Virus record (IMG/VR): IMGVR_UViG_3300033144_000519 | Coordinates: 1-26,784 of that record | Length of the DNA: 26,784 nucleotides | Strand: one strand, 5' to 3' | DNA from: a virus | Shown here: positions 5,694 to 26,784 of the stretch, in pieces | Layout: each line of letters begins with the position of its first letter | Position numbering within the stretch: the first letter of the stretch is position 1 | The notes under the pieces: generated by a model | What the model was told of the DNA's origin: nothing | The model's database searches: none | Seen by the model: only the letters and a program-made list of their open reading frames with translations | Position numbers and translations under genes: made by a program

Positions 5694-8182
5694 CAGCGCT
5701 TACCGTGTGCTCCGGCTCTTCCTCTCCAGTGTCCCATACGCCACTTGTCACCCGTACCAGTAGATTCAACCTTTAGCGAAATCTGACGTGCCCTCATGCG
5801 GGTTGACACCTTACGTGTACCCGCTGTAACCGTGTACGGTCCCTTCTCTATCCTGTTCAGGTCGCCCGGATATTTCTTGCCTGACAGGGACACATCGATA
5901 CTTCCTTCGAGCGTAAGGAAGTCTGGGATCAGTTGATCAACGTGCATCAGCTCTTCGCCAGCCGGTGGGATTTCCATATCGAATGATTCAATGTTTGCGA
6001 CCATTGCTGAGCCGTTATCGTCTGTGCCTGTCTCGTGCTGATACAGGTATCGGTCAACGCCTGCTGCATACGCTTTTTCCAACAATGGGGAGCGATCTGA
6101 CCATGCCGTTCTTGCCATTCGCCCTGTGGTCCACGATCCCTCTTCATAATTAAATGCCACGTATCGGTTGACTTCAATCGGACTGATATCGAAGTCTGTT
6201 GTTGTCAGTATCTCAAGCGGTCCTGCTGCCAGATTATAGAATTTGAATTCACCCTCAATGGTTGCTGTCGCCTCTGCATGGAGACCGAACGAGCCACCTG
6301 TGTAGAGAAGAGCCTCAGCAGCCGACAAGTCAAACTGCCACACCTGAATGCCATTCAAGTACACGGTTATCTCTAACAGGTTGACTGACACGGTGATGAT
6401 GTATTTTGTGTCCTGCGCCACTGCCTCGCCCAGCACTGACGTAAAAGTATCAGTGCCCGGATCATTAACAAGAACAGCCTTTGTGCCGCTCGCAACCTTC
6501 TTCCTGATGCGAATCGTGTCAGTAAAGAAGTCAGCCTCGACATAGATGCCCTGAGCATCATCAGAGCTTGTGTCTGGTGTGCCTGTGATCTCGGTACGCA
6601 GAAACACCATGCCACCCCAGTGAGTCGCAGCGCCACCATCTCCATTGAATGCAAACTCAACGGCATACTCGGCTTCAACGGGAGTGATCAGTGGTTCATC
6701 GTTGGTCAGGACATAATCAAATTCATAGCCGTTGTCTGCTGTGTTTTCGATCTCTGTCCAGCCACCTGAGTTGAATACGTAGCTGTAACCAATAGTTCCC
6801 CCACCAGATGCAGCAGCAAGCGAGTACCCCGGTGGAATTCCAAGTGAGAAGTCCTGTTGCGCCCAAGCCTCTGGATCGAAGCTCGGATAGAACCACCACA
6901 CTTCATTGAATTCTCGGTTGAGTCCACCGTAGACCTTTTCTTTCTGATCGTTGTTTAGATTGTCGTACACAAAGTTGCGCACGTCGCAGGGTATGATGCG
7001 CACGATGCCGTCATACATATAAAAATCAGCCTCAGCCATGAACAACACACGGTGATCAATCGGCACTGCACAATTCGCACCCAGTATCGAGACGTTCTCG
7101 CCAACGATGTTCAGACCGAATACAGCAAAGCCACCAACAAATGGCATCGTATGCACGCTCACGTCTGTGAAAATGACGGTCTCAAGACGCGACCTGACGC
7201 CTGCAATAATCTTTGAGCCTGAGTACAATCGTAGATCGCCTGATGTGTTTGTGCTGGTGGGAATCCAGTCGTTCAGGTCTTCAGTAGACGACCAACGAAT
7301 CAACAGTGGATCGAAAGCATCATTGAAAAAATCGTATGCTCCAAGAGCAATCACGTGTCGGTCGCGTTGTGAGACGACCATGTACTTGTTTTTTACAGGA
7401 GCATCACCACCAAGAGCTGCTGCGCGTGCGCCTGTGCCTTTAGATCGATCCCACCAATAAATAGAGCCATCAGTCGGAGATGCCAGCAGGTCTTCACCCC
7501 ACGTGTCCAGTGACCATGTTCTGATTCCCAGAACAAGCGTAGCGCCTGTGCGTGCGTTACCGTAGCCCTCACGACCGTATGGTCCTGTGCTATAGCCTGT
7601 TGCTGTTATCGCACTGGATTCTCCTGCGCTAATGTCGTACTCGTAGCTTGGACTGCCACCTTCGCCTGCACCACCAGTCCCTGCTGTTTCGTCGTCAGTG
7701 ATCTCGTAGTTATCGATATCGATGATCCTATCGACCTTGTACTCACCATCAACCGTAATGGCGCTCGCACCACCGATTATTGCACCGTCAAAGCGCACGT
7801 AGTCGCCAGCAGCAACACCATGGTTGCTATGCTCGACACGCACTCTGGTCTCGCCATCAAAGGTCGTGAACGGCGCTGTGAGCGTCCCTGAGTCCCTGAG
7901 AGGTGTAATGTCGTACAAGGTCTCGTTCTGCCATAGATACAACTTGGCTTCCGTGCCAATGGCTGTCCATCGCTTGGCGTCCAGTGACGACCAGTCCTTC
8001 AGGCGACGACAAGTACCAAGGAACTGTGGTTGCAGTTGAATCCAGCCACCAATTTTCTCAGCCAAGCCCTTACGAAAGCGTACCTTGTCAGCCTTGAACC
8101 ACTGTCCAACGGCACCACGCTCACTCTGTTCTGTGTAGAGACCGGGACCGATTGGCAGTGGAAAGATAACCTTCTGTGTCAT
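5693..8182 (-). CDS. P22 gp10-like tail nozzle / packaged-DNA stabilization protein with inserted lectin-like domain
   Basis: The 829-aa product fits the podovirus nozzle family, whose beta-propeller plugs the tail and holds packaged DNA. Family-like features include the start FPLPIGPGLYTEQSERGA (7-24), WFKADKVRFRKGLAEKIGGW (28-47), and blades with YLWQNETLYDITPLR, TWGEDLLASPTDGSIYWWD, WSSTEDLNDW and FMAEADFYMYDG. The usual run EVWWFYPS (about 428-434) does not lead directly into the next blade. It is interrupted by about 230 residues that look like a separate beta-sandwich, and the core resumes at VNRYVAFNYEEGSWTTGRMARTAW (about 671-694). The ATG overlaps the polyglycine protein stop as ATGA. 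Family assignment is fairly confident from motif order and neighbours. The insertion is discussed in the findings. Confidence 0.8.
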   Translation of the reverse strand: MTQKVIFPLPIGPGLYTEQSERGAVGQWFKADKVRFRKGLAEKIGGWIQLQPQFLGTCRRLKDWSSLDAKRWTAIGTEAKLYLWQNETLYDITPLRDSGTLTAPFTTFDGETRVRVEHSNHGVAAGDYVRFDGAIIGGASAITVDGEYKVDRIIDIDNYEITDDETAGTGGAGEGGSPSYEYDISAGESSAITATGYSTGPYGREGYGNARTGATLVLGIRTWSLDTWGEDLLASPTDGSIYWWDRSKGTGARAAALGGDAPVKNKYMVVSQRDRHVIALGAYDFFNDAFDPLLIRWSSTEDLNDWIPTSTNTSGDLRLYSGSKIIAGVRSRLETVIFTDVSVHTMPFVGGFAVFGLNIVGENVSILGANCAVPIDHRVLFMAEADFYMYDGIVRIIPCDVRNFVYDNLNNDQKEKVYGGLNREFNEVWWFYPSFDPEAWAQQDFSLGIPPGYSLAAASGGGTIGYSYVFNSGGWTEIENTADNGYEFDYVLTNDEPLITPVEAEYAVEFAFNGDGGAATHWGGMVFLRTEITGTPDTSSDDAQGIYVEADFFTDTIRIRKKVASGTKAVLVNDPGTDTFTSVLGEAVAQDTKYIITVSVNLLEITVYLNGIQVWQFDLSAAEALLYTGGSFGLHAEATATIEGEFKFYNLAAGPLEILTTTDFDISPIEVNRYVAFNYEEGSWTTGRMARTAWSDRSPLLEKAYAAGVDRYLYQHETGTDDNGSAMVANIESFDMEIPPAGEELMHVDQLIPDFLTLEGSIDVSLSGKKYPGDLNRIEKGPYTVTAGTRKVSTRMRARQISLKVESTGTGDKWRMGHWRGRAGAHGKR

Positions 8183-9339
8183 ACGCCATTCTCGTCGGTC
8201 GCAAACAGATACATAGAAGCGATAACTTCATCAGCGCCCATGTCGGTGCGCTGTATCTCGAACAGCTGACCAGCTGTCCAGAACTGATCCTTTGAAAACG
8301 TCCATGATCTGGTGCTGGTCAGTTGATACCATGTGCCATCCACCAAGCCTGTATCCCACGTTGAAAGTTTTTGCCCTAAAACACCTGAGCCACGAACCCA
8401 GTAATTATCACCATTGCCTGAAGCAAACGGTGGAAGCATCCAATCACTTGCAAAACCAGAGGGCGTGCCATCGTATATGGAACTCAGTTGACCGGTTGAT
8501 CCGAATTGCCAGCCGTGCGTTGACATTCCAGAGACAGAAGCATGGATAACGCGAAGCCTCACATTTAGTAAGAACTCGGTTTCACCTCTAAGCCTGCTCG
8601 CCAACCTGAGCACCGATTCAGTGCCGGTGCCATCGAATGAAATAGCAGCACCACCTGTTCCGCGAAAAGCATTGCCAGCCCTGCCGCCTTGTCCACCACG
8701 AAGACCGGTAGATAAGGCTACGGTCCCGCCTGTAATACCACCGAGACCAAAGTCACCACCTATGCCGCCGCCGTTGGTGGGACCGCTGCCACCGTTGCCG
8801 CTTGCGCCCGGACCAAGATTGTTGCCATCACCCCCTGCTGTTGCGGCTGGTGATCCAGTGCCAGCAATGCCACCGGTTGTCGGTAGAAAGCCTGCACCAC
8901 CACCACCGCCGCCGCCCGGTGTTTGAGCGCCGATCCACCAAGAACCACCACCACCACCACCGCCGCCGCCAAGCAGAAAGCCGTCATCTATGTCTATGGA
9001 TACGTCAAAGGTATTTGACTCAATAGCATGACCACCAACGACGCCGGGGGAACCAACAGTGCCTGAAATACCCAAGTCGTCGCCGCCGCCGCCGCCATCA
9101 CCACCAAGACCAATGAAACGTCCACCGTTTACCGCAATAAAGGTGAACGTGCTAAGTGCAGCAAAATCAAGGGTGATTATAATGTTGCCAACATCACAGC
9201 CATCAGCTGTAAAAAGCACATCAACAGCTGAGCTTGGGTTACCAATAAATGAGTACAGGTCTCCGACTAAAGTGTCAGAATCACAGACGATAGTGACTTC
9301 GCCACCTCCGGCAAACAACCCAAGGGAATTGTTCCACAT
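8179..9339 (-). CDS. Glycine-rich adhesin-like tail protein
   Basis: This 386-aa protein has three parts. Residues 1-75 are beta-rich. Residues about 78-225 are extremely glycine-rich, with poly-Gly tracts of seven to nine residues and GG-N/GG-I motifs around a SWWIGAQTPG core. The C-terminal 150 residues contain YWVRGSGVLG and TWYQLTSTRSWTFSKD, a beta-domain type often seen in phage structural proteins. Glycine-rich blocks of this kind in the T-even phage S16 gp38 adhesin form packed polyglycine-II helices with receptor-binding loops, so a tip adhesin is a sensible inference. It lies between a fibre-like protein and the nozzle. The start follows a GGGGGG-AG purine run, 3 nt after the preceding stop. 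It could instead be a structural spacer. Confidence 0.6.
   Translation of the reverse strand: MWNNSLGLFAGGGEVTIVCDSDTLVGDLYSFIGNPSSAVDVLFTADGCDVGNIIITLDFAALSTFTFIAVNGGRFIGLGGDGGGGGDDLGISGTVGSPGVVGGHAIESNTFDVSIDIDDGFLLGGGGGGGGGSWWIGAQTPGGGGGGGAGFLPTTGGIAGTGSPAATAGGDGNNLGPGASGNGGSGPTNGGGIGGDFGLGGITGGTVALSTGLRGGQGGRAGNAFRGTGGAAISFDGTGTESVLRLASRLRGETEFLLNVRLRVIHASVSGMSTHGWQFGSTGQLSSIYDGTPSGFASDWMLPPFASGNGDNYWVRGSGVLGQKLSTWDTGLVDGTWYQLTSTRSWTFSKDQFWTAGQLFEIQRTDMGADEVIASMYLFATDENGV
8895..9096. repeat. Trinucleotide tracts encoding poly-glycine
   Basis: Three runs of (CCA/CCG)n on the plus strand, at about 8895-8916, 8944-8970 and 9080-9096, encode poly-Gly on the minus strand. Such runs can gain or lose whole codons by slippage without breaking the frame. 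Confidence 0.8.
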
Positions 9340-10212: not shown

Positions 10213-10872
10213 TTATCTCTGATTGGTTGGGGAAGCTGGCACTTCCATCGGCGTCAGGTTGTATCGTTCTTGCAGCATCGTGTACGTCTCGCGCTTCGCA
10301 AGCGGCAAGGCATCAACGTACTCTTGTTTCCACATCTCCACTCGATCATCAGCCTTTAAGAAGCCCTCAGCTTCAGCCAGACATGCCTTGAACAGCAGGT
10401 CGTCCTGATGTAGCGATAACCATGTGGTGGCATTGCCATCAGATAGCCGCGTCGGTCGTGTCGTGCCACGAGTGTTGACTGTGTAAATATCGTCAGGGAT
10501 CGGAGATAGAAGCCAATCAGTCTCAGTCTGTTCAGCATAGTATTTAGGTGGAGCTGTGGACCCTATCGTCTGATGATCCCTGACGAAATCGGTTGATCGC
10601 AGTTCGAGCCATACGCGCTCGCCTGCGTTGTCATAGTAAAGCGACTGCCACGTTACCAACTCGGTGTCTGTTACGGGTTTAGTTAAGGTTTCGGTGGACG
10701 CGACAGTCGGTGTAGTGTTTTCAGACGTGAATATGGACAGGTCAAGATCGCGCCACAAGCGCATCTCTCCAAGGTTGATCACATCATCGATTGATCCTAT
10801 GAACTCGTTGTCATCATCTTCCACCCATGCCTGAAGATTGGCGACAAGCTCTGTGTATGTTTTGTTGCTCAT
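10213..10872 (-). CDS. Head-tail adaptor (phage SU10-type adaptor family)
   Basis: This 219-aa protein starts with YTELVANLQAWVEDDDNEFI, then a helix GSIDDVINLGEMRLWRDLDL. It continues with a beta region (YYDNAGERVWLELRSTDFV, PPKYYAEQTETDWLLSPIPDDIYTVNTRGTTRP) and ends with helices WLSLHQDDLLFKACLAEAEGFL and VEMWKQEYVDALPLAK. From memory this layout fits adaptors of short-tailed phages such as SU10, which bind the portal and receive the nozzle. Its position between neck and tail genes agrees. The ATG overlaps the stop of the 201-aa gene (ATGA). The 237-aa gene at 11474-12187 looks like a related second adaptor, so the neck may have two adaptor rings or one of them may be a fibre connector. 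Confidence 0.7.
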   Translation of the reverse strand: MSNKTYTELVANLQAWVEDDDNEFIGSIDDVINLGEMRLWRDLDLSIFTSENTTPTVASTETLTKPVTDTELVTWQSLYYDNAGERVWLELRSTDFVRDHQTIGSTAPPKYYAEQTETDWLLSPIPDDIYTVNTRGTTRPTRLSDGNATTWLSLHQDDLLFKACLAEAEGFLKADDRVEMWKQEYVDALPLAKRETYTMLQERYNLTPMEVPASPTNQR

Positions 10873-11474
10873 GCAGCGACACCACTCGAAGTTGGCAGGA
10901 AGACTGATGGTGAGCCAGTAGCTGATCTCACTGCTTCTCCCAGATGAAAATCATTACCAACAGTTGCAGTACTGCCTGATGGAAACGCTGTGGTGAATGG
11001 GAGAAAGAACACTGGAGTGTTCCCATGGATTGACGCATAGCCTTCCACAATGCGCGATACATGAAAGCCGCCGCCATCAAGCTCAATGAACAGCCATTCG
11101 TTCCATGGTTCAAGTGGAACAGCATCTATAAATGCAATGCTGGTTTCTCCACCGGTCAAGGTGGTATTGATCGTGCCAGCAACCGCAGCAGTCGTTGTCG
11201 TCGGCGTTGTGCCACCATCCAGATTCTCTGGATCGCCGTACCCTTCAGGTATGGAAATCTCCGGGGCTGGACGAAAAAGAGCAATAGGATCAGTGACTTC
11301 GACAGGTATTTCTTGAGGGTGTTTGGGTTCCCACCAATCAGGATGCACCAACAAACCGGAGATGTGACCGTCTTCCACCAAGTCTCTGTAGCGCATCTTC
11401 TGACCAGAGCGCTGACACTCCGCTATGGCATGTGTGCCACGAGCGTATGATCTGTGCAGGCTTTTGGTACTCAT
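10869..11474 (-). CDS. Neck-region structural protein with a single 21-residue-family repeat at its C-terminus
   Basis: The N-terminal 70 residues read as a compact module. It contains AIAECQRSGQKMRYRDLVEDGHISGLLVHPDWWEPKHPQE (about 16-55), followed by a Pro-rich link. Similar short modules occur between the adaptor genes of other marine podoviruses, to my recollection. A Thr-rich linker (TTPTTTTAAV) leads into a beta-rich section (about 105-180). The last 18 residues are SATGSPSVFLPTSSGVAA, one almost complete copy of the repeat that fills the 1246-aa protein 10 kb away. Start and stop overlap both neighbours (TAATG before, ATGA after). Function is unknown beyond probable head-tail completion. 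The repeat tail is the odd part. Confidence 0.6.
   Translation of the reverse strand: MSTKSLHRSYARGTHAIAECQRSGQKMRYRDLVEDGHISGLLVHPDWWEPKHPQEIPVEVTDPIALFRPAPEISIPEGYGDPENLDGGTTPTTTTAAVAGTINTTLTGGETSIAFIDAVPLEPWNEWLFIELDGGGFHVSRIVEGYASIHGNTPVFFLPFTTAFPSGSTATVGNDFHLGEAVRSATGSPSVFLPTSSGVAA
10872..10925 (-). repeat. Isolated copy of the 'GxPSVFLPTSSGVA' repeat
   Basis: This is a single unit at the 3' end of the 201-aa gene. Over about 43 bp it differs at roughly 6 positions, by eye, from a unit near 22625-22670 in the main array, so the similarity extends to DNA. Confidence 0.85.
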
Positions 11475-12187
11475 TAGCGATACCTGCCTGCACTTCCGCG
11501 CCTGCGCCTGAACCCGGATTCAGGAACAATCCTTACTGAGCCACGTTCACGTGCTGCGTTAGTTCCTTTAGTGAATGCCATTCCCGCCTTAGCAAATAGA
11601 GCTTGCTCAAGTTCTGGCGGCGCATACTTCTCTGCCAGTCTGAATGCAAGTCCTGCCGCAAATGCGTCGGTCATGTACCACGAGATGTCGGCGTTGTCGG
11701 CTGCAGTGTCGGAGTCTTCATACTTGACCACTGCATCGAAGACAATGGTGTCAGTTGAGTTCTCAGGGACGGTCCAAAAGGTCATGTCAATGCCATCACG
11801 CTGTTTATCAATAAACACACGATCAGGTCGCCCCTCGATGTCCTTCTCAGGGATGTTCAGCCACTCGTGGCGGCTCATGAACTCGACCGGGGTATCAACA
11901 CCATTGCGGCGCAATACAACGCCGATGATGTCAACAAGGTTGACCGGGACATCCGTTGGTCCGGTATAGACCTGCTGAGACTCAACGGTGTTGAAGCTCA
12001 GCTGTTTAATCCGATAGTTCTGATAATCCTGAGTCGCCCAATCTATCAACATGAAGCGCATCGAACGGCGAGCAGAGAGGATGTGACGCACAGTTATGTG
12101 CGCCGGATCAACCCTGCACCGCTCGAAGGCTTCATCGACAATCTCGGCAAGATCGGGATTAAAGATGTACGTCCCAGATGTCGCCAT
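11474..12187 (-). CDS. Head-tail adaptor-like protein (P22 gp4-like position)
   Basis: The 237-aa protein opens with FNPDLAEIVDEAFERCRVDP (about 9-28). A helix HILSARRSMRFMLIDWATQDYQNYRIKQL follows, then a beta section including YTGPTDVPVNLVDIIGVVLRRNG and MTFWTVPENSTDTIVFDAVVKYED. It ends in WYMTDAFAAGLAFRLAEKYAPPELEQALFAKAGMAF and an Arg-rich tail. Several short-tailed phages encode a similarly built adaptor between capsid and nozzle genes, where it binds the portal ring. The assignment rests on this layout and gene order. An AAGGAT ribosome site lies 8 nt before the start, within the end of the preceding gene. Confidence 0.65.
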   Translation of the reverse strand: MATSGTYIFNPDLAEIVDEAFERCRVDPAHITVRHILSARRSMRFMLIDWATQDYQNYRIKQLSFNTVESQQVYTGPTDVPVNLVDIIGVVLRRNGVDTPVEFMSRHEWLNIPEKDIEGRPDRVFIDKQRDGIDMTFWTVPENSTDTIVFDAVVKYEDSDTAADNADISWYMTDAFAAGLAFRLAEKYAPPELEQALFAKAGMAFTKGTNAARERGSVRIVPESGFRRRRGSAGRYR

Positions 12188-16304: not shown

Positions 16305-16700
16305 TTAAATGTACACTCGGAACGCATGAGGATCGCTAACAATGCCCATGATCCCATCGTCATTCATGATGAGATACTTTGCTCCGGTTTTGGTTTTGAT
16401 GGTCTGCCCACCATAGGTGCCATACATGATCCAGTCACCAACCTTCGGCTTAGGATCAATCTTCGACATGTCAATGCCTGATCGAGTGACTACCTTGTAA
16501 CACTCGCTGCCCATGGCAACGATCTGCCCAACGTAGGACAAGAGGTCTTCAGACTCTCTCACCTCTTCTGGAAGCTCGATGCCGCCCTCTGAGTAATTGG
16601 CTACCTCATACGGACGGATCAGGACGCGCCAACCGATTGGCTGAACTGGAAGCTCAGCTTCGATGTCGGTTTCAGGCGCTTTGAAGTCAACCTGCGTCAT
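16305..16700 (-). CDS. GroES/Cpn10-like co-chaperonin
   Basis: The 131-aa protein matches the Cpn10 layout. A strand GWRVLIRPYEV (about 23-33) leads to a mobile-loop-like segment NYSEGGIELPEEV (about 35-47) that keeps the GGI-x-L motif used by GroES to bind GroEL. Then come VGQIVAMGSECYK (57-69), KVGDWIMYGTYGGQTIKT (86-103) and AKYLIMNDDGIMGIVSD (107-123), parallel to the GroES run ending 'yLilresDIlaiv'. It has about 18 extra N-terminal residues. The start overlaps the preceding stop as ATGA. Phage co-chaperonins such as T4 gp31 replace host GroES to fold the capsid protein. The place between portal and scaffold genes supports that role here, which remains inferred. Confidence 0.8.
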   Translation of the reverse strand: MTQVDFKAPETDIEAELPVQPIGWRVLIRPYEVANYSEGGIELPEEVRESEDLLSYVGQIVAMGSECYKVVTRSGIDMSKIDPKPKVGDWIMYGTYGGQTIKTKTGAKYLIMNDDGIMGIVSDPHAFRVYI

Positions 16701-19578: not shown

Positions 19579-21242
19579 TACTTCATCCCTCTAATTCCGC
19601 CGTACATGCGAACAGGCTTGTTCACATAGTTCATCAAGTTGTCGTTATCGTCGTCGTCATCCAAGAAGTCAGCGCTCCACTTCTTGCGCAACCAAAGCAT
19701 TGCCATCGTGCATGAGTCAACCAAGTCATCATGGTCATCAGCCGGGAAATTACCGCACTGCTGTATCACCTCTGCCGACCAGTTACGCTTCACGTAGAAG
19801 ATGCAACCGCGCTCCAGTACCAGTGACGCAGCATGTGCCCGGACAAACTTGGAGTCCGTTACCTTGATACGTGCAATCGGCAAATTACCACGGCGCAGCT
19901 CTTGTGCCAGTGAGTGACCGCTTGCCTTCTTCTCAATCAATACCCGGTCAGGCTTCCACAGCTGTGCCGCCTCAATGGCGTTCTCACGCAGCTCTGGGAA
20001 CTCCATACGCTTGTTCATGCGCTCTAACAGAATCAGGCAAAGTCGCTTCTGACCTTTGTACTTGGCTGTCCATGGCAGCTTTGGATCGAGGTACTCTTCG
20101 TGCTCGAACACACCCCACGTGGTCCGGGCGCTGAAATCATGCTCTTCCTCTTCTTCAAAGGCTGTGTCGTAGCTCTGGATGACCATCTGAATCTGTGGCA
20201 ACTCAACATCAGTCCACTCGCGCCAGTGGTGCTCCTTCATGATGTTGCCGCCCTTCGCTGAAGGGTTCTGTTGAATCTGTGACTCGAAGCCACGCTCAGT
20301 CAGTTCGTAGGACAGCTTAGCCATCTCTGCCTGACCAAAGCGCTCCGGCGTAAGCAGATCATTCTCTTTCTTGCGTGGATCACGAAACAGAAGCTCACCC
20401 TTCACCAGCGGCTCAATGTCATCACCGAAGGTATAGACAGCCGGGTTTTCATTCGCTGGAATAGTTCTGACTGAGTTCTTCTTTGCTCTTGTTATGCAGC
20501 GCGTCTTCGGCACGTAGTATCCGGGCAGGTTCAAATGCACCCAGTTACCTGACGACAGCACATGTCCGGGCAGGTCTTGGTGGTGTCCACGTTGCGCGAT
20601 GATGACACGACCGAGCTTCTTCGGATCATTGCCACGTGTGGACATGACATCACGCCACCAGTCAATCACGCCTGCACGTATCGTGTCGCTGTTGATCTCC
20701 TTCATGTTGTGCGCGTCATCAACTACGATGCGGTCGCCACCTTCACCGGTTGCGGTTCCACCTACTGACGTTGCCAGCCTGTAACCGTTTGCGGTGTTGT
20801 CGAACCGTCCCTTCTGGTTCAGGTCGCTCGACAGTTGAAAGCAATCCCCGAAGTGGTCCTGATACCACGGTGACTGGATCAGCCGACGACACTTCACCGA
20901 ATCTCGGATTGTAAGGGAGCTTGCGTAGGTAGCGAATAACCACTGTGTTGAAGGTTGCCATGTCCACTCCCATGCAGGCCACATGACGGCGACCACGGTT
21001 GACTTGCTGTGTCGTGGTGGGATGTTGATCACCAGATCATCGATATCACCAAGCGACACATAGGTGAGGTGTTCACAGATCGCATCGATGTGCCAGCCAC
21101 CCTTGAACTCCTTCCCCGGCTCGACCACGTGCCATGCTTCAGAAAGAAACTGCTTCAGGTCGCGCTTCATACCGATAGCTTGTATCTGCGTCCAGCTGAT
21201 AGCAGGATCAAAACTGACGGCTTCTGCAGCGTTTATGTTCAT
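19578..21242 (-). CDS. terL: Terminase large subunit (packaging ATPase-nuclease)
   Basis: This 554-aa protein has both terminase domains. In the ATPase part, Walker A is PPRHSKST (75-82), Walker B is RIVVDDAHN (171-179) and a coupling-type motif is IIAQRGHHQDLPGHVL (214-229). In the nuclease part, acidic residues are SYDTAF (D359), VLIEKKASG (E437) and DDHDDLVDS (502-510), as in RNase H-fold terminase nucleases. The Walker B ends DD rather than the more usual DE. A GFESQIQQNP motif (318-327) is also typical of this family. The tail carries a DDDDDND run. Its ATG overlaps the stop of the repeat protein (ATGA). No small terminase subunit is recognisable in the window, so it may lie to the right. 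Confidence 0.92.
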   Translation of the reverse strand: MNINAAEAVSFDPAISWTQIQAIGMKRDLKQFLSEAWHVVEPGKEFKGGWHIDAICEHLTYVSLGDIDDLVINIPPRHSKSTVVAVMWPAWEWTWQPSTQWLFATYASSLTIRDSVKCRRLIQSPWYQDHFGDCFQLSSDLNQKGRFDNTANGYRLATSVGGTATGEGGDRIVVDDAHNMKEINSDTIRAGVIDWWRDVMSTRGNDPKKLGRVIIAQRGHHQDLPGHVLSSGNWVHLNLPGYYVPKTRCITRAKKNSVRTIPANENPAVYTFGDDIEPLVKGELLFRDPRKKENDLLTPERFGQAEMAKLSYELTERGFESQIQQNPSAKGGNIMKEHHWREWTDVELPQIQMVIQSYDTAFEEEEEHDFSARTTWGVFEHEEYLDPKLPWTAKYKGQKRLCLILLERMNKRMEFPELRENAIEAAQLWKPDRVLIEKKASGHSLAQELRRGNLPIARIKVTDSKFVRAHAASLVLERGCIFYVKRNWSAEVIQQCGNFPADDHDDLVDSCTMAMLWLRKKWSADFLDDDDDNDNLMNYVNKPVRMYGGIRGMK

Positions 21243-24200
21243 GTGCGTAGACTGAAGAACTTCGCGACCGTCAGCAGACGACGCACGACGAACTCTCCGA
21301 AGGAACCAGTGACATCATGGTCAGCGATGAGTGCATCCCAGACGGCATCAGCTTGGAACTCAGCCGTGGTCTGGGTAATGATGGTATCCAGTTTTGCAGA
21401 GTCAGCCGGATCAAACATAGCGATGATCCCACCAGAAGTCGTAATGCCATCTGTCATTGCATAGGCGAACTCTTGATAGCCAGTCAGCAGCGCTGGCTGA
21501 TCTGTTAGGTTGTCCGTGTCCCAAAGGAAGACTCCTGTCGCGGTTATCTCATCGCAGACGTTGTAATCGAGAGGTTCAACATCGCCGGTAACAGGATCAT
21601 ACAGCGTGATAGTCACGGTGCTTAGTGTGGGGAAAACCTCGGCTGCGTTGAAGATACCACCAAACGGGCTTGTTGCGACACCACTGGCTGTCGGCAGCGG
21701 TATCGACGGAGCGCCGCTCGCTACGTTTCCAACCTCTGCAACACCCGCAGCAATCGGCAAAAATACAGACGGTGAGCCGCTTGCTGTGTTCTCAATCTCA
21801 GCAGCACCGCTGGCTGTTGGTAAGAAAACAGAGACTGCGCCACTGGCTTGCTTCAGGGTGTTTGCGACACCGCTGGTTGTTATCAAAACTGTCGATGGTG
21901 CGCCAGTAGCCGCTCTTTCCATGACAACGGCACCACTGGACGTAGGCAGCAGTATGGACGGTGAGCCGAATGCCGTGTTGTTTACGAACGCTGTACCACT
22001 GGACGTGGGCAGGAACACTGTCGGTGCTCCTGTCGCCTTGTTCTCAACCTCAGCGGCACCGGTTGCAGTAGGCAAGAAGACCGAAGGAGCACCCGTAGCA
22101 GAGAAGGCTCCACCTGCATTACCGATGGCAGTTATGAGTATCGTTGCCGGAGCGCCAGTGGCTGTCTTTATAATCTCTGCGGCACCGGCTGATGTTGGTA
22201 GATGCGCCGATGGAGCGCCACTAGCAGCATTGATACCGCTGGTCGTAGCGGCACCACTGGATGTCGGTAGGAAGACTGAGGGCGAACCAGTAGCAGTATT
22301 GGTTACTTCTGCCACACCACTGGATGTTGGCAGGATGATCGAAGGCGCACCCGTTGCGGTGTTGCTGGTCTCGGCTACACCAGCCGCTGTCGGCAATATG
22401 ATCGACGGACTACCAGCAGCCGTGTTGGTGACTTCAGCAACACCCGCTGCTGTCGGCAGTATGGTCGAAGGCGCACCAGTCGCAGTAAAGACAATGCTTG
22501 CCGCACCGCTGGCAGTCGGCAAGAAGATTGATGGGCTACCAGTAGCTGCTCTGCTTACAGTGGCAGCGCCTGCCGATGTCGGCAAGAAGATCGATGGCGA
22601 ACCAGCTGCCGTGTTCTCAATTAAAGCTGCACCACTCGAAGTGGGCAGGAAGACCGATGGACTACCAGTAGCGGTGCTGATGACATCTGCAGCACCACTC
22701 GATGTGGGTAGGAAGACTGTCGGTGAACCACTGGCTGGTCTCTCTACTGTTGCCGCGCCGCTCGACGTTGGCAGGAATACTGAAGGCGCACCGTTTGCAT
22801 TGGATACCCCTTCGACCTCTCCAGTACCAGCAGCCGTCACCAATATGAGTGACGGCGCACCAGTGGCAGATCGTTCCATGACTGCCGCGCCACTGGATGT
22901 TGGTAAGGTGATCTCCGGCGCACCTGTAGCAATGTTCTCTACCGTGGCATCACCAGCTGACGTTGGTAGGATAATTGAAGGCGCACCGGATGCCGTATTG
23001 ATGACTTCAGCCGTACCAGCTGATGTGGGTAGCGTTATCTCCGGGGCACCAGTGGCGCTGTTGAGAACTTCAGCAACACCAGCCGATGCAGGCAAGAAGA
23101 CCGCAGGCGCACCATCGGCAGTCTTGATAACTTCCGCCGTGCCTGCCGAGGTAGGCAGGAAGACCGAAGGAGCACCAGTCGCTCCAAAGCTGATCTCTGC
23201 AACGCCAGCAGATGTCGGCAGGAATACCGATGGTGCTCCGGTGGCTGTCTTGATTGTTTCAGCCGTGCCAGCAGACGTGGGCAAAAAGACTGATGGTGAG
23301 CCACTGGCTTTATTAAGAACTTCTGCAACGCCAGCAGAGGTTGGTATCGCAATATCAGGAGCACCGGTAGCGCTTCGTTCGCTGTTCGCTACACCAGCCG
23401 ATGTAGGTAAGAGGATGCTCGGAGAACCAAATGCCGTGTTGCCTACGAAGCCACTGCCTGATGCTGTGATCAGGATGGTCGATGGAGCGCCGCTCGCGCT
23501 GCGTACCAACCCTGCCGTACCAGCCGCCGTTGGCAAGAATACTGAAGGTGCGCCGGTAGCCGCAAAGCCCAGCTTGGCAGCACCACTCGATGTCGGCAGG
23601 AAAACAGAAGGAGCACCATCAGCCGTGAAGCTGATCTCTGCAGCACCACTTGACGTTGGCAAGATAACTGAGGGAGCACCAGCCGCTGTGTTAATAACCT
23701 CTGCCACGCCAGCAGATGTCGGGAGAAATACTGAGGGAGCACCATCAGCCGTGTTCTCAATGACTGCCGCGCCAGCTGCTGTTGGTAAGAAGACCGAGAC
23801 TGCGCCTGTCGCAGTATTGATGACCTCGGCGGCACCAGCAGCTACTGGTAAAAATACCAGTGGTGCGCCGGTAGCTGTGTTCTCTACTTCAGCAACGCCA
23901 GCCGCAACTGGTAAAAATACTGACGGAGCACCGTTGGCAGACTCCCCGCCAAAGATGCCGACTACAACTGCAATCCACCCAACGTCGCCGCTGTTTCTGT
24001 TTTCGACTCCTAAGAATATGTTGCCTGTCGGTGGTCCAGCAGGATCATCGAATGTGATTGAGGTGCCATCTGCTGTCGCAGCAGTGACCGTCATCTCGGT
24101 CGCACCAATAAGGGTCTTGGTGGTGTTCAGATAAACTCTGGGCCAGATGAATGCAGCACCGTCAGCCGTGGGTAGGAATACATCTGGCGCACCCGTAGCA

Positions 24201-24979
24201 CTCTCATCCACCGCACCTGCGTCAGCGTTGGCTGTACCATCAGACGTGGGCAAGAAAACTGAAGGTGACCCGGCAGCGGTATTGATAACTTCTGCGACAC
24301 CCGCAGAGGTAGGCAAGAAGACTGAAGGAGCGCCTGTAGCACCGCTCTGTATTTCCGCCGCACCGGCTGAGCTAATAAAACCTATGGTGCTGTCGATGCC
24401 AGTATCGCCACCGACTTGAGCTGTATGGATAACCTCTGCGAGACCGCTTGATGTGGGCAGGAAAGCAGACGGTGAGCCTGCGGCACTCCTTTCGACGCCA
24501 GCCGCACCGGCAGAGGTGGGTAAGAACGTGGTTGGCGCACCATTGGCTGTGTTCTCAACGACAGCCGCACCACTCGACGTTGGCAGTATGATCGCTGGTG
24601 AGCCATCCGCTGTGTTCTCGATGACTGCAACACCAGCAGAGGTGGGAAGGAAGATGGACGGCGATCCACTCGCCGTGTTAATGACCTCAGCGGTGCCTGC
24701 TGACGTTGGTAAGAATGTCGTTGGAGCACCATCAGCCGTGTTGATGACGACCGCAGCACCGGCAGAGACGACAAGCGCAACGAGCGCCGCACCGGTAGCT
24801 GTGTTCAGTACCTCAGCGACACCTGATGATGTTGGTAAGAAAGCTGAAGGTGCGCCAGTAGCTGTTTCTCCACCAGCAGGTTCTTTCTCAGCCTCAGTAC
24901 GAAGCGCACCATCCTGCGGATCGCCAGTACCCTTCTGAACCTCAGTTCTTAGCGAGCCATTTTGGAACGGATCAGCCAT
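21239..24979 (-). CDS. Giant 21-residue-repeat surface protein, about 47 units
   Basis: The 1246-aa protein has a 41-residue N-terminus (with a small duplication, NGSLRTEVQK / DGALRTEAEK). About 47 tandem units follow with consensus G-A/S-P-S-V-F-L-P-T-S-A/S-G-V-A-E-V-I-N-T-A-T. A unique C-terminal domain of about 143 residues ends with AVWDALIADHDVTGSFGEF, a motif seen in various phage structural proteins. Each unit has two alternating hydrophobic stretches separated by Gly, which suggests two short beta strands per unit and a stacked beta-solenoid or fibre. A 72-residue non-repeat island interrupts the array (23936-24151). Codon third positions differ between units while the protein motif is kept, supporting this reading frame. 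It overlaps both neighbours (TAATG, ATGA). A head fibre, decoration or adhesion role is likely but unproven. Confidence 0.75.
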   Translation of the reverse strand: MADPFQNGSLRTEVQKGTGDPQDGALRTEAEKEPAGGETATGAPSAFLPTSSGVAEVLNTATGAALVALVVSAGAAVVINTADGAPTTFLPTSAGTAEVINTASGSPSIFLPTSAGVAVIENTADGSPAIILPTSSGAAVVENTANGAPTTFLPTSAGAAGVERSAAGSPSAFLPTSSGLAEVIHTAQVGGDTGIDSTIGFISSAGAAEIQSGATGAPSVFLPTSAGVAEVINTAAGSPSVFLPTSDGTANADAGAVDESATGAPDVFLPTADGAAFIWPRVYLNTTKTLIGATEMTVTAATADGTSITFDDPAGPPTGNIFLGVENRNSGDVGWIAVVVGIFGGESANGAPSVFLPVAAGVAEVENTATGAPLVFLPVAAGAAEVINTATGAVSVFLPTAAGAAVIENTADGAPSVFLPTSAGVAEVINTAAGAPSVILPTSSGAAEISFTADGAPSVFLPTSSGAAKLGFAATGAPSVFLPTAAGTAGLVRSASGAPSTILITASGSGFVGNTAFGSPSILLPTSAGVANSERSATGAPDIAIPTSAGVAEVLNKASGSPSVFLPTSAGTAETIKTATGAPSVFLPTSAGVAEISFGATGAPSVFLPTSAGTAEVIKTADGAPAVFLPASAGVAEVLNSATGAPEITLPTSAGTAEVINTASGAPSIILPTSAGDATVENIATGAPEITLPTSSGAAVMERSATGAPSLILVTAAGTGEVEGVSNANGAPSVFLPTSSGAATVERPASGSPTVFLPTSSGAADVISTATGSPSVFLPTSSGAALIENTAAGSPSIFLPTSAGAATVSRAATGSPSIFLPTASGAASIVFTATGAPSTILPTAAGVAEVTNTAAGSPSIILPTAAGVAETSNTATGAPSIILPTSSGVAEVTNTATGSPSVFLPTSSGAATTSGINAASGAPSAHLPTSAGAAEIIKTATGAPATILITAIGNAGGAFSATGAPSVFLPTATGAAEVENKATGAPTVFLPTSSGTAFVNNTAFGSPSILLPTSSGAVVMERAATGAPSTVLITTSGVANTLKQASGAVSVFLPTASGAAEIENTASGSPSVFLPIAAGVAEVGNVASGAPSIPLPTASGVATSPFGGIFNAAEVFPTLSTVTITLYDPVTGDVEPLDYNVCDEITATGVFLWDTDNLTDQPALLTGYQEFAYAMTDGITTSGGIIAMFDPADSAKLDTIITQTTAEFQADAVWDALIADHDVTGSFGEFVVRRLLTVAKFFSLRT
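21671..24856 (-). repeat. 63-bp tandem repeat array (21-residue units)
   Basis: About 47 copies at a 63-bp period encode the 'GAPSVFLPTSSGVAEVINTAT' unit. Most units are exactly 21 codons. A few carry insertions (for example near 24360-24420), and one 216-bp unique island lies at 23936-24151. Units diverge mainly at synonymous positions. Confidence 0.9.
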
Positions 24980-25797
24980 TATGCGTCTACTGAAGTCACC
25001 GGAACTGAGCCATCTGACAGATCAGCTGTGTCGTCTTTATAAAAGTGCAAGAAGTAGTCTTGGCCGCTCGCCAATCCACCAAGGGTGTACACCCCGGTAC
25101 TAACATGAGAGACAACCTGATCCACGATTGGGCCGGTTGGTTTAGGATCAGTGCCAGCACCATCGGAAATCCAGCAAGTAACCGTGACGCCACCAACAGC
25201 CGCTGAGCGATTAGCGTTCTTGGTGATGCCGTCAATCTTGCCAGCCGTGATGACTGTGATCGTTGCAGTAAACGTCTTGTATACCCCAGAGCCTCCACCT
25301 GACTCAGACACCCTAAACTCATACTCATCACCGTTGGCAGCATCAGCGCCGGACAGATCAACTGCCCATTGCGTATCGAAGACCAGCTTCGATGCGACGT
25401 TGGACATGGTGACTTCGTTTGCACCTTCACGTTCAACACCATCTGTATGGGTCACGCCCATAGTGGAGCAGTTCTCCGTGCCATTGCGTTCGCCAGTGAC
25501 CACGGCAGCGCCGTTAGACAAATCAGATACAGTCGCCCACGCCAGTTCGCCGGTAGAGGCTAAGTTATTCCAGCCATCGCTATGGGTGGCATTCTGCCAC
25601 TCAAGGTAAAAGTCACCGGAGATCGCATTCATGTCGTCTGAGTCGTAAGCAATGGCGACAATGATTGTCTGCGCATCGTTGAACTCAAAACCTGTATCAG
25701 CAGCAGCCACCCAGTTACGGTTACCTGCGCCAGCACCATCCAGAGCAAAACGGATGCCGTTGATGCACCCACCATTAGTAATCCACGGATTAGCCAT
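24979..25797 (-). CDS. Two-domain beta-rich virion protein with Ig-like C-terminal domain
   Basis: This 272-aa protein has an N-terminal beta-sandwich-like region with WVAAADTGFEFNDAQTIIVAIAYDSDD and FYLEWQNATHSDGWNNLAS. An ANEVTMSNVASKLVFDTQWAVDLSGADAANGDEYEFRVSESGG section follows, typical of phage surface proteins. From about residue 187 comes KIDGITKNANRSAAVGGVTVTCW and then VVSHVSTGVYTLGGLASGQDYFLHFYKD. This pattern resembles a carboxypeptidase-regulatory-like or SpaA-type Ig-fold domain, often used in adhesive or decorating proteins. It shares a TAATG overlap with the giant repeat gene and probably works with it on the particle surface. The assignment is from strand pattern only. Confidence 0.6.
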   Translation of the reverse strand: MANPWITNGGCINGIRFALDGAGAGNRNWVAAADTGFEFNDAQTIIVAIAYDSDDMNAISGDFYLEWQNATHSDGWNNLASTGELAWATVSDLSNGAAVVTGERNGTENCSTMGVTHTDGVEREGANEVTMSNVASKLVFDTQWAVDLSGADAANGDEYEFRVSESGGGSGVYKTFTATITVITAGKIDGITKNANRSAAVGGVTVTCWISDGAGTDPKPTGPIVDQVVSHVSTGVYTLGGLASGQDYFLHFYKDDTADLSDGSVPVTSVDA

Positions 25798-26134
25798 TCA
25801 CGTAGTCCTCTTCTTCGTACAGGTTGTTGTCGTCGTCAGTGATGTCCACCTTCTTGACAATCCTTGATAAAAACAAGGTTTGTCGCACCGGGGCATCAGG
25901 GTGAGTTGACACGTTCTCTCTGCGGTTGGTCTCGAACTCTTTGAGCCTTGCCAGTGCCTGCTTTTTGGTCGTCCCCGGTGGCAAGTCTTCAAACTGGTTC
26001 GGGTAGATAGAATAATCCCCTCCACAGTCGATGCACTTGTTTGGCTCTATCTGAATGCGCCACTCAGTGATAAACCACAGCACGTCATCACTATCGACAG
26101 CATCTGGAAAGTTCCTGTTATGAAAATCACCCAT
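25790..26134 (-). CDS. Hypothetical 114-aa protein with a CxxC pair
   Basis: A small soluble protein beginning MGDFHNRNFPDAVDSDDVLWFITEW. It has a CIDCGG motif (about 34-39) and a helix KKQALARLKEFETNRREN (about 57-74), and ends with an acidic tail (DITDDDNNLYEEEDYVNG). The CxxC could bind a metal, but only one pair is present. A ribosome site AGGAG lies 8 nt before the ATG, just after the repeat-gene stop. It overlaps the 272-aa gene by 8 nt. It could be a connector or minor structural protein; I do not recognise the family, and the size alone does not support calling it a small terminase. Confidence 0.55.
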   Translation of the reverse strand: MGDFHNRNFPDAVDSDDVLWFITEWRIQIEPNKCIDCGGDYSIYPNQFEDLPPGTTKKQALARLKEFETNRRENVSTHPDAPVRQTLFLSRIVKKVDITDDDNNLYEEEDYVNG

Positions 26135-26143
26135 CTCTTACTC

Positions 26144-26784
26144 CTATACAAATCCTGTTCCCACAATTGGGATGTCGGTGTCTTCATCATCCCATGTGTT
26201 ATCGCCACTTGCCGATGTGATCTTGACCGCTGTACGTAACGCCGCACCATCAGACGTTGGCAAGAACACAACCGGTGAGCCAGTAGCCGTGTTCTCGATC
26301 AGTGCTGCACCGGCTGACGTGATTGGAATGATGGATACAGCACCGGTCGCTGTCTTCTCGATCAGTGCTGCGCCAGCCGAGGTGATCAGTCCAATGACTG
26401 GGGCACCAGTGGCGACGTTCTCGATCAGTGCCACACCAGCCGCAGTGATCAGTATTGTTTCCGGGGCACCTGTCGCCGTGTTGATGACTTCTGCCGCACC
26501 AGCCGTGGTGGGCAAGAAGACGCTCGGAGCGCCATCAGAGGTATGGACTGCTTCACCGACTGCCACGCCCGCTGACGTAATGAGTATCGTTGATGGTGAG
26601 CCGACAGCAGTATTGATGACCTCGGCTGCACCGGATGCAGATGGCAAGAACACGCTTGGTGCGCCGACTGCTGTGTTCTCTATTTCGGCAACACCGGATG
26701 ACGTGGGTAAGAACACGCTGGGAGCACCAGTCGCTGTTTCATCAGCAGCTGCAACTGGCTCAACCAAGATGACTTGGAACGCCA
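26144..26784 (-). CDS. Second repeat protein, 5' end off the right edge (partial)
   Basis: The frame is open to the edge (residues AFQVILVEPVAAADE precede the array). A TTG within it is not a convincing start, so the N-terminus is missing. About eight units of the same 21-residue family follow (GAPSVFLPTSSGVAEIENTAV and variants such as GAPETILITAAGVALIENVAT). After the array, a 31-residue tail reads AVKITSASGDNTWDDEDTDIPIVGTGF. This resembles the first strands of an IPT/TIG Ig-like domain, but the stop falls right after GTGFV. The protein therefore either ends in a partial TIG-like domain or has a tail that only looks like one. It probably belongs to the same surface module as the giant repeat protein. 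Confidence 0.7.
   Translation of the reverse strand, partial: AFQVILVEPVAAADETATGAPSVFLPTSSGVAEIENTAVGAPSVFLPSASGAAEVINTAVGSPSTILITSAGVAVGEAVHTSDGAPSVFLPTTAGAAEVINTATGAPETILITAAGVALIENVATGAPVIGLITSAGAALIEKTATGAVSIIPITSAGAALIENTATGSPVVFLPTSDGAALRTAVKITSASGDNTWDDEDTDIPIVGTGFV
26240..26728 (-). repeat. Second 63-bp repeat array (about 8 units)
   Basis: About eight units of the FLPTSAG family, with several 'ILITSAG' variants, lie between the open 5' part and the 31-residue tail of the right-edge gene. This is the same period and consensus as the large array, 1.4 kb upstream of it in transcription order. Confidence 0.85.

Follow-up and report, generated by a model that had tools for sequence, protein, structure and literature searches.

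An adaptor-adjacent protein ends in one unit of the phage's own repeat family

The window analysed here is the whole of a 26,784-base virus record (IMG/VR record IMGVR_UViG_3300033144_000519), whose minus strand carries a structural gene cluster. In this cluster, a terminase, a portal, a major head protein, and a protein of the SU10_adaptor family were recognized by PHROG and Pfam matches (Table 1). The gene that ends at the adaptor gene encodes a 201-aa protein (P0001) that had been named a neck protein in the first-pass annotation. The name fits its position between adaptor-like genes, but because it derives from the place of the gene between those of the 237-aa protein and the SU10_adaptor protein, it is a positional label and not a demonstrated function. 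The counterpart of the 237-aa protein in the phage CRP-901 is gp54, the "tail adaptor," which has an SU10_adaptor Pfam match. The 201-aa protein consists of an N-terminal C-x-R-S-G...HPQE region (residues ~1 to 75), a beta-barrel (~95 to 181), and a lone repeat tail (181 to 201). The profile of phrog_28581, a family of unknown function, matches the N-terminal region at residues 10 to 89 (E = 3.8e-5). P0001 has no match in Pfam, including SU10_adaptor (PF24175), the family of its downstream neighbor; XM1_gp53_minor_capsid (PF23982) matched 1 of 22 members at E = 0.023, which is below the curated cut-off, and did not match P0001. Sequence searches of the PDB with the 201-aa protein, with its alignment, and with the array described below gave no meaningful match. 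In the AF2 monomer model, residues 95 to 181 form a confident small beta-barrel, and tail residues 183 to 196 have a pLDDT of <50 and pack on nothing. Comparison of the barrel fold gave Z values of up to 7.4 against barrels of tailspikes, tail tips, and two podovirus head/portal-tail structures, which may reflect only a common arrangement. Two further proteins of the window were observed in passing. A 131-aa protein (16305 to 16700) looks like a GroES-type co-chaperonin, and in CRP-901, a gene annotated as co-chaperonin GroES occupies a similar position. A 386-aa glycine-rich protein (8179 to 9339) has runs of G and a beta-rich C terminus, and we take it to be reminiscent of glycine-rich phage adhesins.

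Table 1. Positions of the genes and repeat features in the window
Feature	Position	Strand	Basis or remark
SU10_adaptor-family protein, 219 aa	10213..10872	-	PF24175, E = 2e-22
201-aa adaptor-adjacent protein (putative neck protein)	10869..11474	-	ORF; phrog_28581; AF2 model; 43 IMG/VR homologues
Lone repeat unit AVRSATGSPSVFLPTSSGVAA	10872..10934	-	One 21-aa (63-nt) period
237-aa protein upstream of the 201-aa gene	11474..12187	-	phrog_12985, E = 2.5e-15; CRP-901 synteny
P1246, 1246-aa array protein, ~46 units of 21 aa	21239..24979	-	ORF and repeat analysis
Nearest array unit to the tail in the 16-aa core	22625..22672	-	40/48 nt, 15/16 aa
272-aa array-module protein	24979..25797	-	Homologue (66%) beside two arrays in the unrelated phage L064
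114-aa array-module protein	25790..26134	-	Homologue (59%) in L064
P212, second array protein, 212 aa visible, 8 units	26144..26782	-	Runs off the contig end

The window encodes two proteins with long repeat arrays, P1246 and P212. P1246 has one interior non-repeat domain of ~60 aa (...IWPRVYLNT...), and its C-terminal domain ends in VTGSFGEFVVRRLLTVAKFFSLRT. Among the units of the array, residues are well conserved and synonymous codons are nearly randomized: where two units share a residue, the codon is identical in a fraction of 0.345 (34.5%), compared to 0.313 (31.3%) expected from codon usage. Since the synonymous positions are nearly saturated, DNA similarity from unit to unit is only weakly informative. 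Such near-random synonymous codons in P1246 would limit recombination between its units. An open frame of 842 codons runs antisense to the array on the plus strand (21606 to 24134) and is probably a by-product of the codon composition of the repeat. Nine array units were modeled by AF2 as a solenoid with one coil per 21-aa unit, in one of five models only (best pLDDT, 78.5; other models, 50 to 65), and over-prediction of solenoids for repeats is a known bias of AlphaFold2 (PMC11795689). A Foldseek search with the array model gave no match at E <= 0.001. Kinship of the array with beta-helical proteins (VIA-align Z up to 15.6) was considered and not accepted, because repeats in general score high in this comparison.

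The sole unit of this repeat family outside P1246 and P212 within the window is the tail of the 201-aa protein. Its last 18 residues, SATGSPSVFLPTSSGVAA, are encoded at 10872 to 10925 on the minus strand and are followed by the stop at 10869 to 10871; translation of the ORF confirmed the coordinates and the sequence that had been given for this tail. The identity of the 18 residues as a repeat unit also stood, but not their length, since the preceding AVR makes 21 residues, which is a full period with its linker. The 21 residues read AVRS...AA, and their linker is similar to the VERP and ERS linkers of the array. The tail has the core of the 21-aa family, ATG(A/S)PSxxLPTSxGxA, and its 21-residue period and is not in tandem, so that it is a lone family unit and no array. 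Its 16-aa core agrees with two array units (22625 to 22672 and 22247 to 22294), each at 40 of 48 nt and 15 of 16 aa, and the codon is the same as in the former unit at 11 of the 15 shared residues. Six differences in 43 bp had been counted by eye against this region, which is right for the first 42 nt, whereas the full 48-nt core has eight. The full 63 nt agree best with an array unit that has the linker VERP (47/63). At the protein level, the tail matches its nearest array units with E values of ~3e-7 to 4e-7; in the remainder of the window, no 48-nt stretch of this strand matches the core better than 25/48.

The history of the tail was followed in 43 homologous IMG/VR loci and four homologues from cultured or deposited phages, and the tail is absent from all 43 and from all four. 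The first-pass annotation had suggested such an alignment, which found the tail neither present nor expanded anywhere; the pattern that it had named as contrary to its reading, a tail in every homologue from phages that lack the array, was not found, as the number of homologues with a tail is zero. The closest four (L022, 87%; L021, 85%; L023, 82%; and L024, 80% identity over the alignment) all end at FH(L/I)GE(S/T). In the window, the ATG of the adaptor gene and the stop codon of the 201-aa gene share bases (ATGA), and the junction DNA of L022 to L024 keeps the identical stop/ATG overlap; the junction sequences of these relatives read TCATGAGC and ACATGAGT, compared to GCATGAGC in the window. 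Compared with the ends of the closest homologues, the window has 60 nt more, one 21-codon period standing in place of one codon. Since the four closest homologues are plain-ended and three of them have kept the stop/start overlap, the tail represents a net insertion (~60 nt) on this lineage. The tree places the window in a group of seven (support, 99/97) of which the other members, like the outgroups, are all without the tail, and a gain on the window's lineage is the simplest history of these sequences. The insert has an imperfect GCAGTGAG/GCATGAG repeat around it, and a target duplication was weighed as its cause and rejected; the repeat comprises only 7 to 8 nt with a gap, and the array linkers explain the linker better.

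The codons of the tail bear on its origin. The fraction of identical codons is 0.40 between tail and array, compared to 0.345 within the array and 0.31 expected. When the tail peptide was given random synonymous codons, the best nucleotide match observed (40/48) was reached in 1.0 to 2.2% of the trials and the best codon agreement observed was reached in 0.6 to 0.9%. Hence, the codon choice of the tail is nearer to the array than chance predicts (P ~0.005 to 0.02), a modest statistic, as taking the best of many units partly selects for similarity, a rule that was applied in the same way to the simulation and to the observed comparison. These codons favor descent of the tail from the array over convergence, with no specific donor nameable. 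The exact donor unit is not visible in the contig, where the best candidate has only 83% over the core and P212 continues past the contig end; given this level of identity, either the copying took place long ago, or its source unit has disappeared or is encoded outside the contig.

The place where the unit is found is variable throughout the family. After the conserved N-terminal region, the C terminus differs among homologues, and some have nothing added. A LamG domain is present at the C terminus of L050 (E = 1.8e-20) and, more weakly, of L055; the C termini of L055 and L045 gave weak PKD/SprB- and BNR-like matches, the PKD/SprB-like ones being below the Pfam cut-offs; and long extensions without assignment are found in L044, L051 to L054, and L059 to L060. 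A short peptide of the FxSDFSxEFD type (e.g., FTSDFSEEFD) recurs in L033 to L042. Relatives with an FTSDFSEEFD-like end have an extra small gene between the 201-aa homologue and the adaptor gene. In gp53 of CRP-901/902, the C terminus is a repeat array with many copies of a different unit (GVAGTGAIG; 20-aa period). Near relatives also conserve the small beta-barrel, and the sequence beyond it changes lineage by lineage. The tail has the marks of an accessory module in that it is missing from close relatives and sits at a conserved junction.

The whole P1246 as the query found no relatives of the array, and the consensus of the units found L065 and L066; of 25 records searched for the repeat, only L064 and L066 gave a match. 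The array is present in L066, in L064, and in L065, which is a relative of 5.3 kb whose terminase and portal are 84 to 87% identical. L064 (8079 to 13294) shares with the window (21239 to 26782) a module of four genes (array, 114 aa, 272 aa, array) and is otherwise a different phage, with a tape-measure-like gene downstream. In the two modules, the non-repeat parts are conserved, including the interior array domain IWPRVYLNT..., whereas both arrays of each differ in their repeat dialect (ASGSPTLxxITSxG in L064 versus ATGAPSVFLPTSxG in the window). Thirteen records extend past the terminase gene on its upstream side; none of them showed the array gene among the matches listed, and in most of these, again among the matches listed, what the gene before the terminase retains of P1246 is the C-terminal motif alone (VTGSFGEFVVRRLLTVAKFF-like). 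Pre-terminase proteins that are otherwise unrelated (window 21239 to 21380; L095 to L107) share this C-terminal motif, ~WDALxxDHSVTGSFGEFVVRRLLTVAKFFSLRT. The pre-terminase region of L097 encodes, among others, a collagen-like protein resembling tail fiber families, and judged by its coding content, the region may be an appendage region. L065, which has the array, and L022, which lacks the tail, come from the same sample and end and begin 48 residues apart in the portal gene; that they are one genome, i.e., an array-bearing phage without the tail, is suggestive only.

The gain of the tail is real and specific to this virus, and a special docking role for it is unproven. Of the two origins offered in the first-pass annotation, recombination from the array is supported by the whole period, the clean gene junction, the absence of the tail from all homologues found, and the array-like codons. 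In our model, one array unit was probably captured in frame by ectopic recombination at an accessory slot, where it would be a near-neutral or incipient appendage and not a required dock. One complete 21-aa unit would have been added in frame, by copying or insertion, to the 3' end of the 201-aa gene, and its landing place would be the C terminus at which the 201-aa family accommodates accessory modules. As a mechanism, ectopic recombination is fairly likely from the comparison of the sequences. The unit then most likely projects from the virion neck as a short extension that is flexible or surface-exposed, either as a near-neutral passenger or as the start of an appendage. Its function is most likely slight, that of a short exposed extension or incipient appendage.

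It is imaginable that the tail serves as a docking or capping strand, as had been proposed, with the lone unit adding a rung at the end of the array and tethering or nucleating the array protein at the neck. The tail and the array of its own phage share one sequence dialect, the predicted solenoid has open ends that could in principle take an extra coil, and the 201-aa gene lies between adaptor-like genes, the adaptor being the site at which SU10 attaches its long tail fibers (PMC9509320). However, positive evidence for docking was not obtained: the tail is disordered and unpacked in the monomer model, and the solenoid comes from a single model of a type that AF2 predicts unreliably. Relatives without the array carry unrelated C-terminal modules, and L065 and L022 could form one array-bearing, tail-less genome, although this link is unproven. 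Furthermore, when the CRP-901 genome was searched with its own gp53 repeat, matches were found within gp53 only and no second copy was found, so that these repeats without a partner array weaken docking as a general reason for repeats at this C terminus. We therefore regard docking as unlikely. The wider idea, in which repeat units are portable docking tags between the virion proteins of one phage and the long protein attaches via an extra rung, is a little more doubtful still.

The other proposed origin, in which a longer array on the 201-aa protein was deleted down to one unit, finds some backing in the long C-terminal extensions of distant homologues and in the repeat array of CRP-901/902. 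However, the junction is clean in the closest homologues and shows the stop/start overlap of the window, and CRP-901 is a distant relative with a different repeat. A remnant is disfavored because the plain-junction sister lineages and the outgroups would each have lost the array independently, which makes several losses on the tree, and we consider it improbable. Convergence at the protein level, by which an independent accessory peptide came to be repeat-like, draws on the near-saturation of the synonymous positions, which leaves DNA similarity only modestly informative, but is very improbable given 15 of 16 residues identical to two units, a linker within the period, and a codon kinship above chance. 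An assembly artifact that fused array sequence to the neck gene is equally improbable: although repeats can confuse assemblers, this is a single metagenomic contig, and no second record of the tail-adaptor junction turned up in an exact search, the tail is identical to no unit in the contig, and conserved gene order continues on both flanks with the ATGA overlap to the adaptor gene kept.

The tail offers a dated, single-step case in which a phage virion protein was lengthened by a piece of the phage's own sequence, at the very terminus where relatives put many other add-ons. If the unit binds the array, repeats could act as portable docking tags and provide a simple route to the recruitment of new fibers; if it does not, the dispersal of repeats among structural genes can be incidental.

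In known systems, parts of this arrangement recur. The arrays of this phage, L065, L066, and L064 are like the tail in period and core (A-T/S-G-A/S-P...L-P-T-S/A-x-G-V/A-A), but they consist of long runs of tandem units, whereas the 201-aa protein of the window is otherwise unrelated to them and has just one unit at its end. In CRP-901, a cultured Roseobacter phage, gp53 lies between two SU10_adaptor-matching genes, the same gene position as that of the 201-aa gene, and gp53 of the Roseobacter phages CRP-901/902 is like the 201-aa protein in having a related N-terminal region and a repetitive C terminus; unlike it, gp53 is without the cysteine of C-x-R-S-G and carries a different repeat in many copies. 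In SU10 (Kuravirus), the small, beta-rich-type gp10 precedes the adaptor gp11 downstream of the major capsid gene (PMC9509320), an order that we liken, by gene position, to that of the 201-aa protein and the adaptor. For SU10 gp10, an Ig-like fold has been described; the domain of the 201-aa protein shows a modest resemblance to the small barrels of tailspikes and tail tips. A further parallel is the grafting of accessory domains such as Ig-like and LamG add-ons, in which a terminal module is likewise present in one lineage and missing from close relatives. There, the module is a whole domain; the module of the 201-aa protein is short and consists of one repeat unit of the phage itself.
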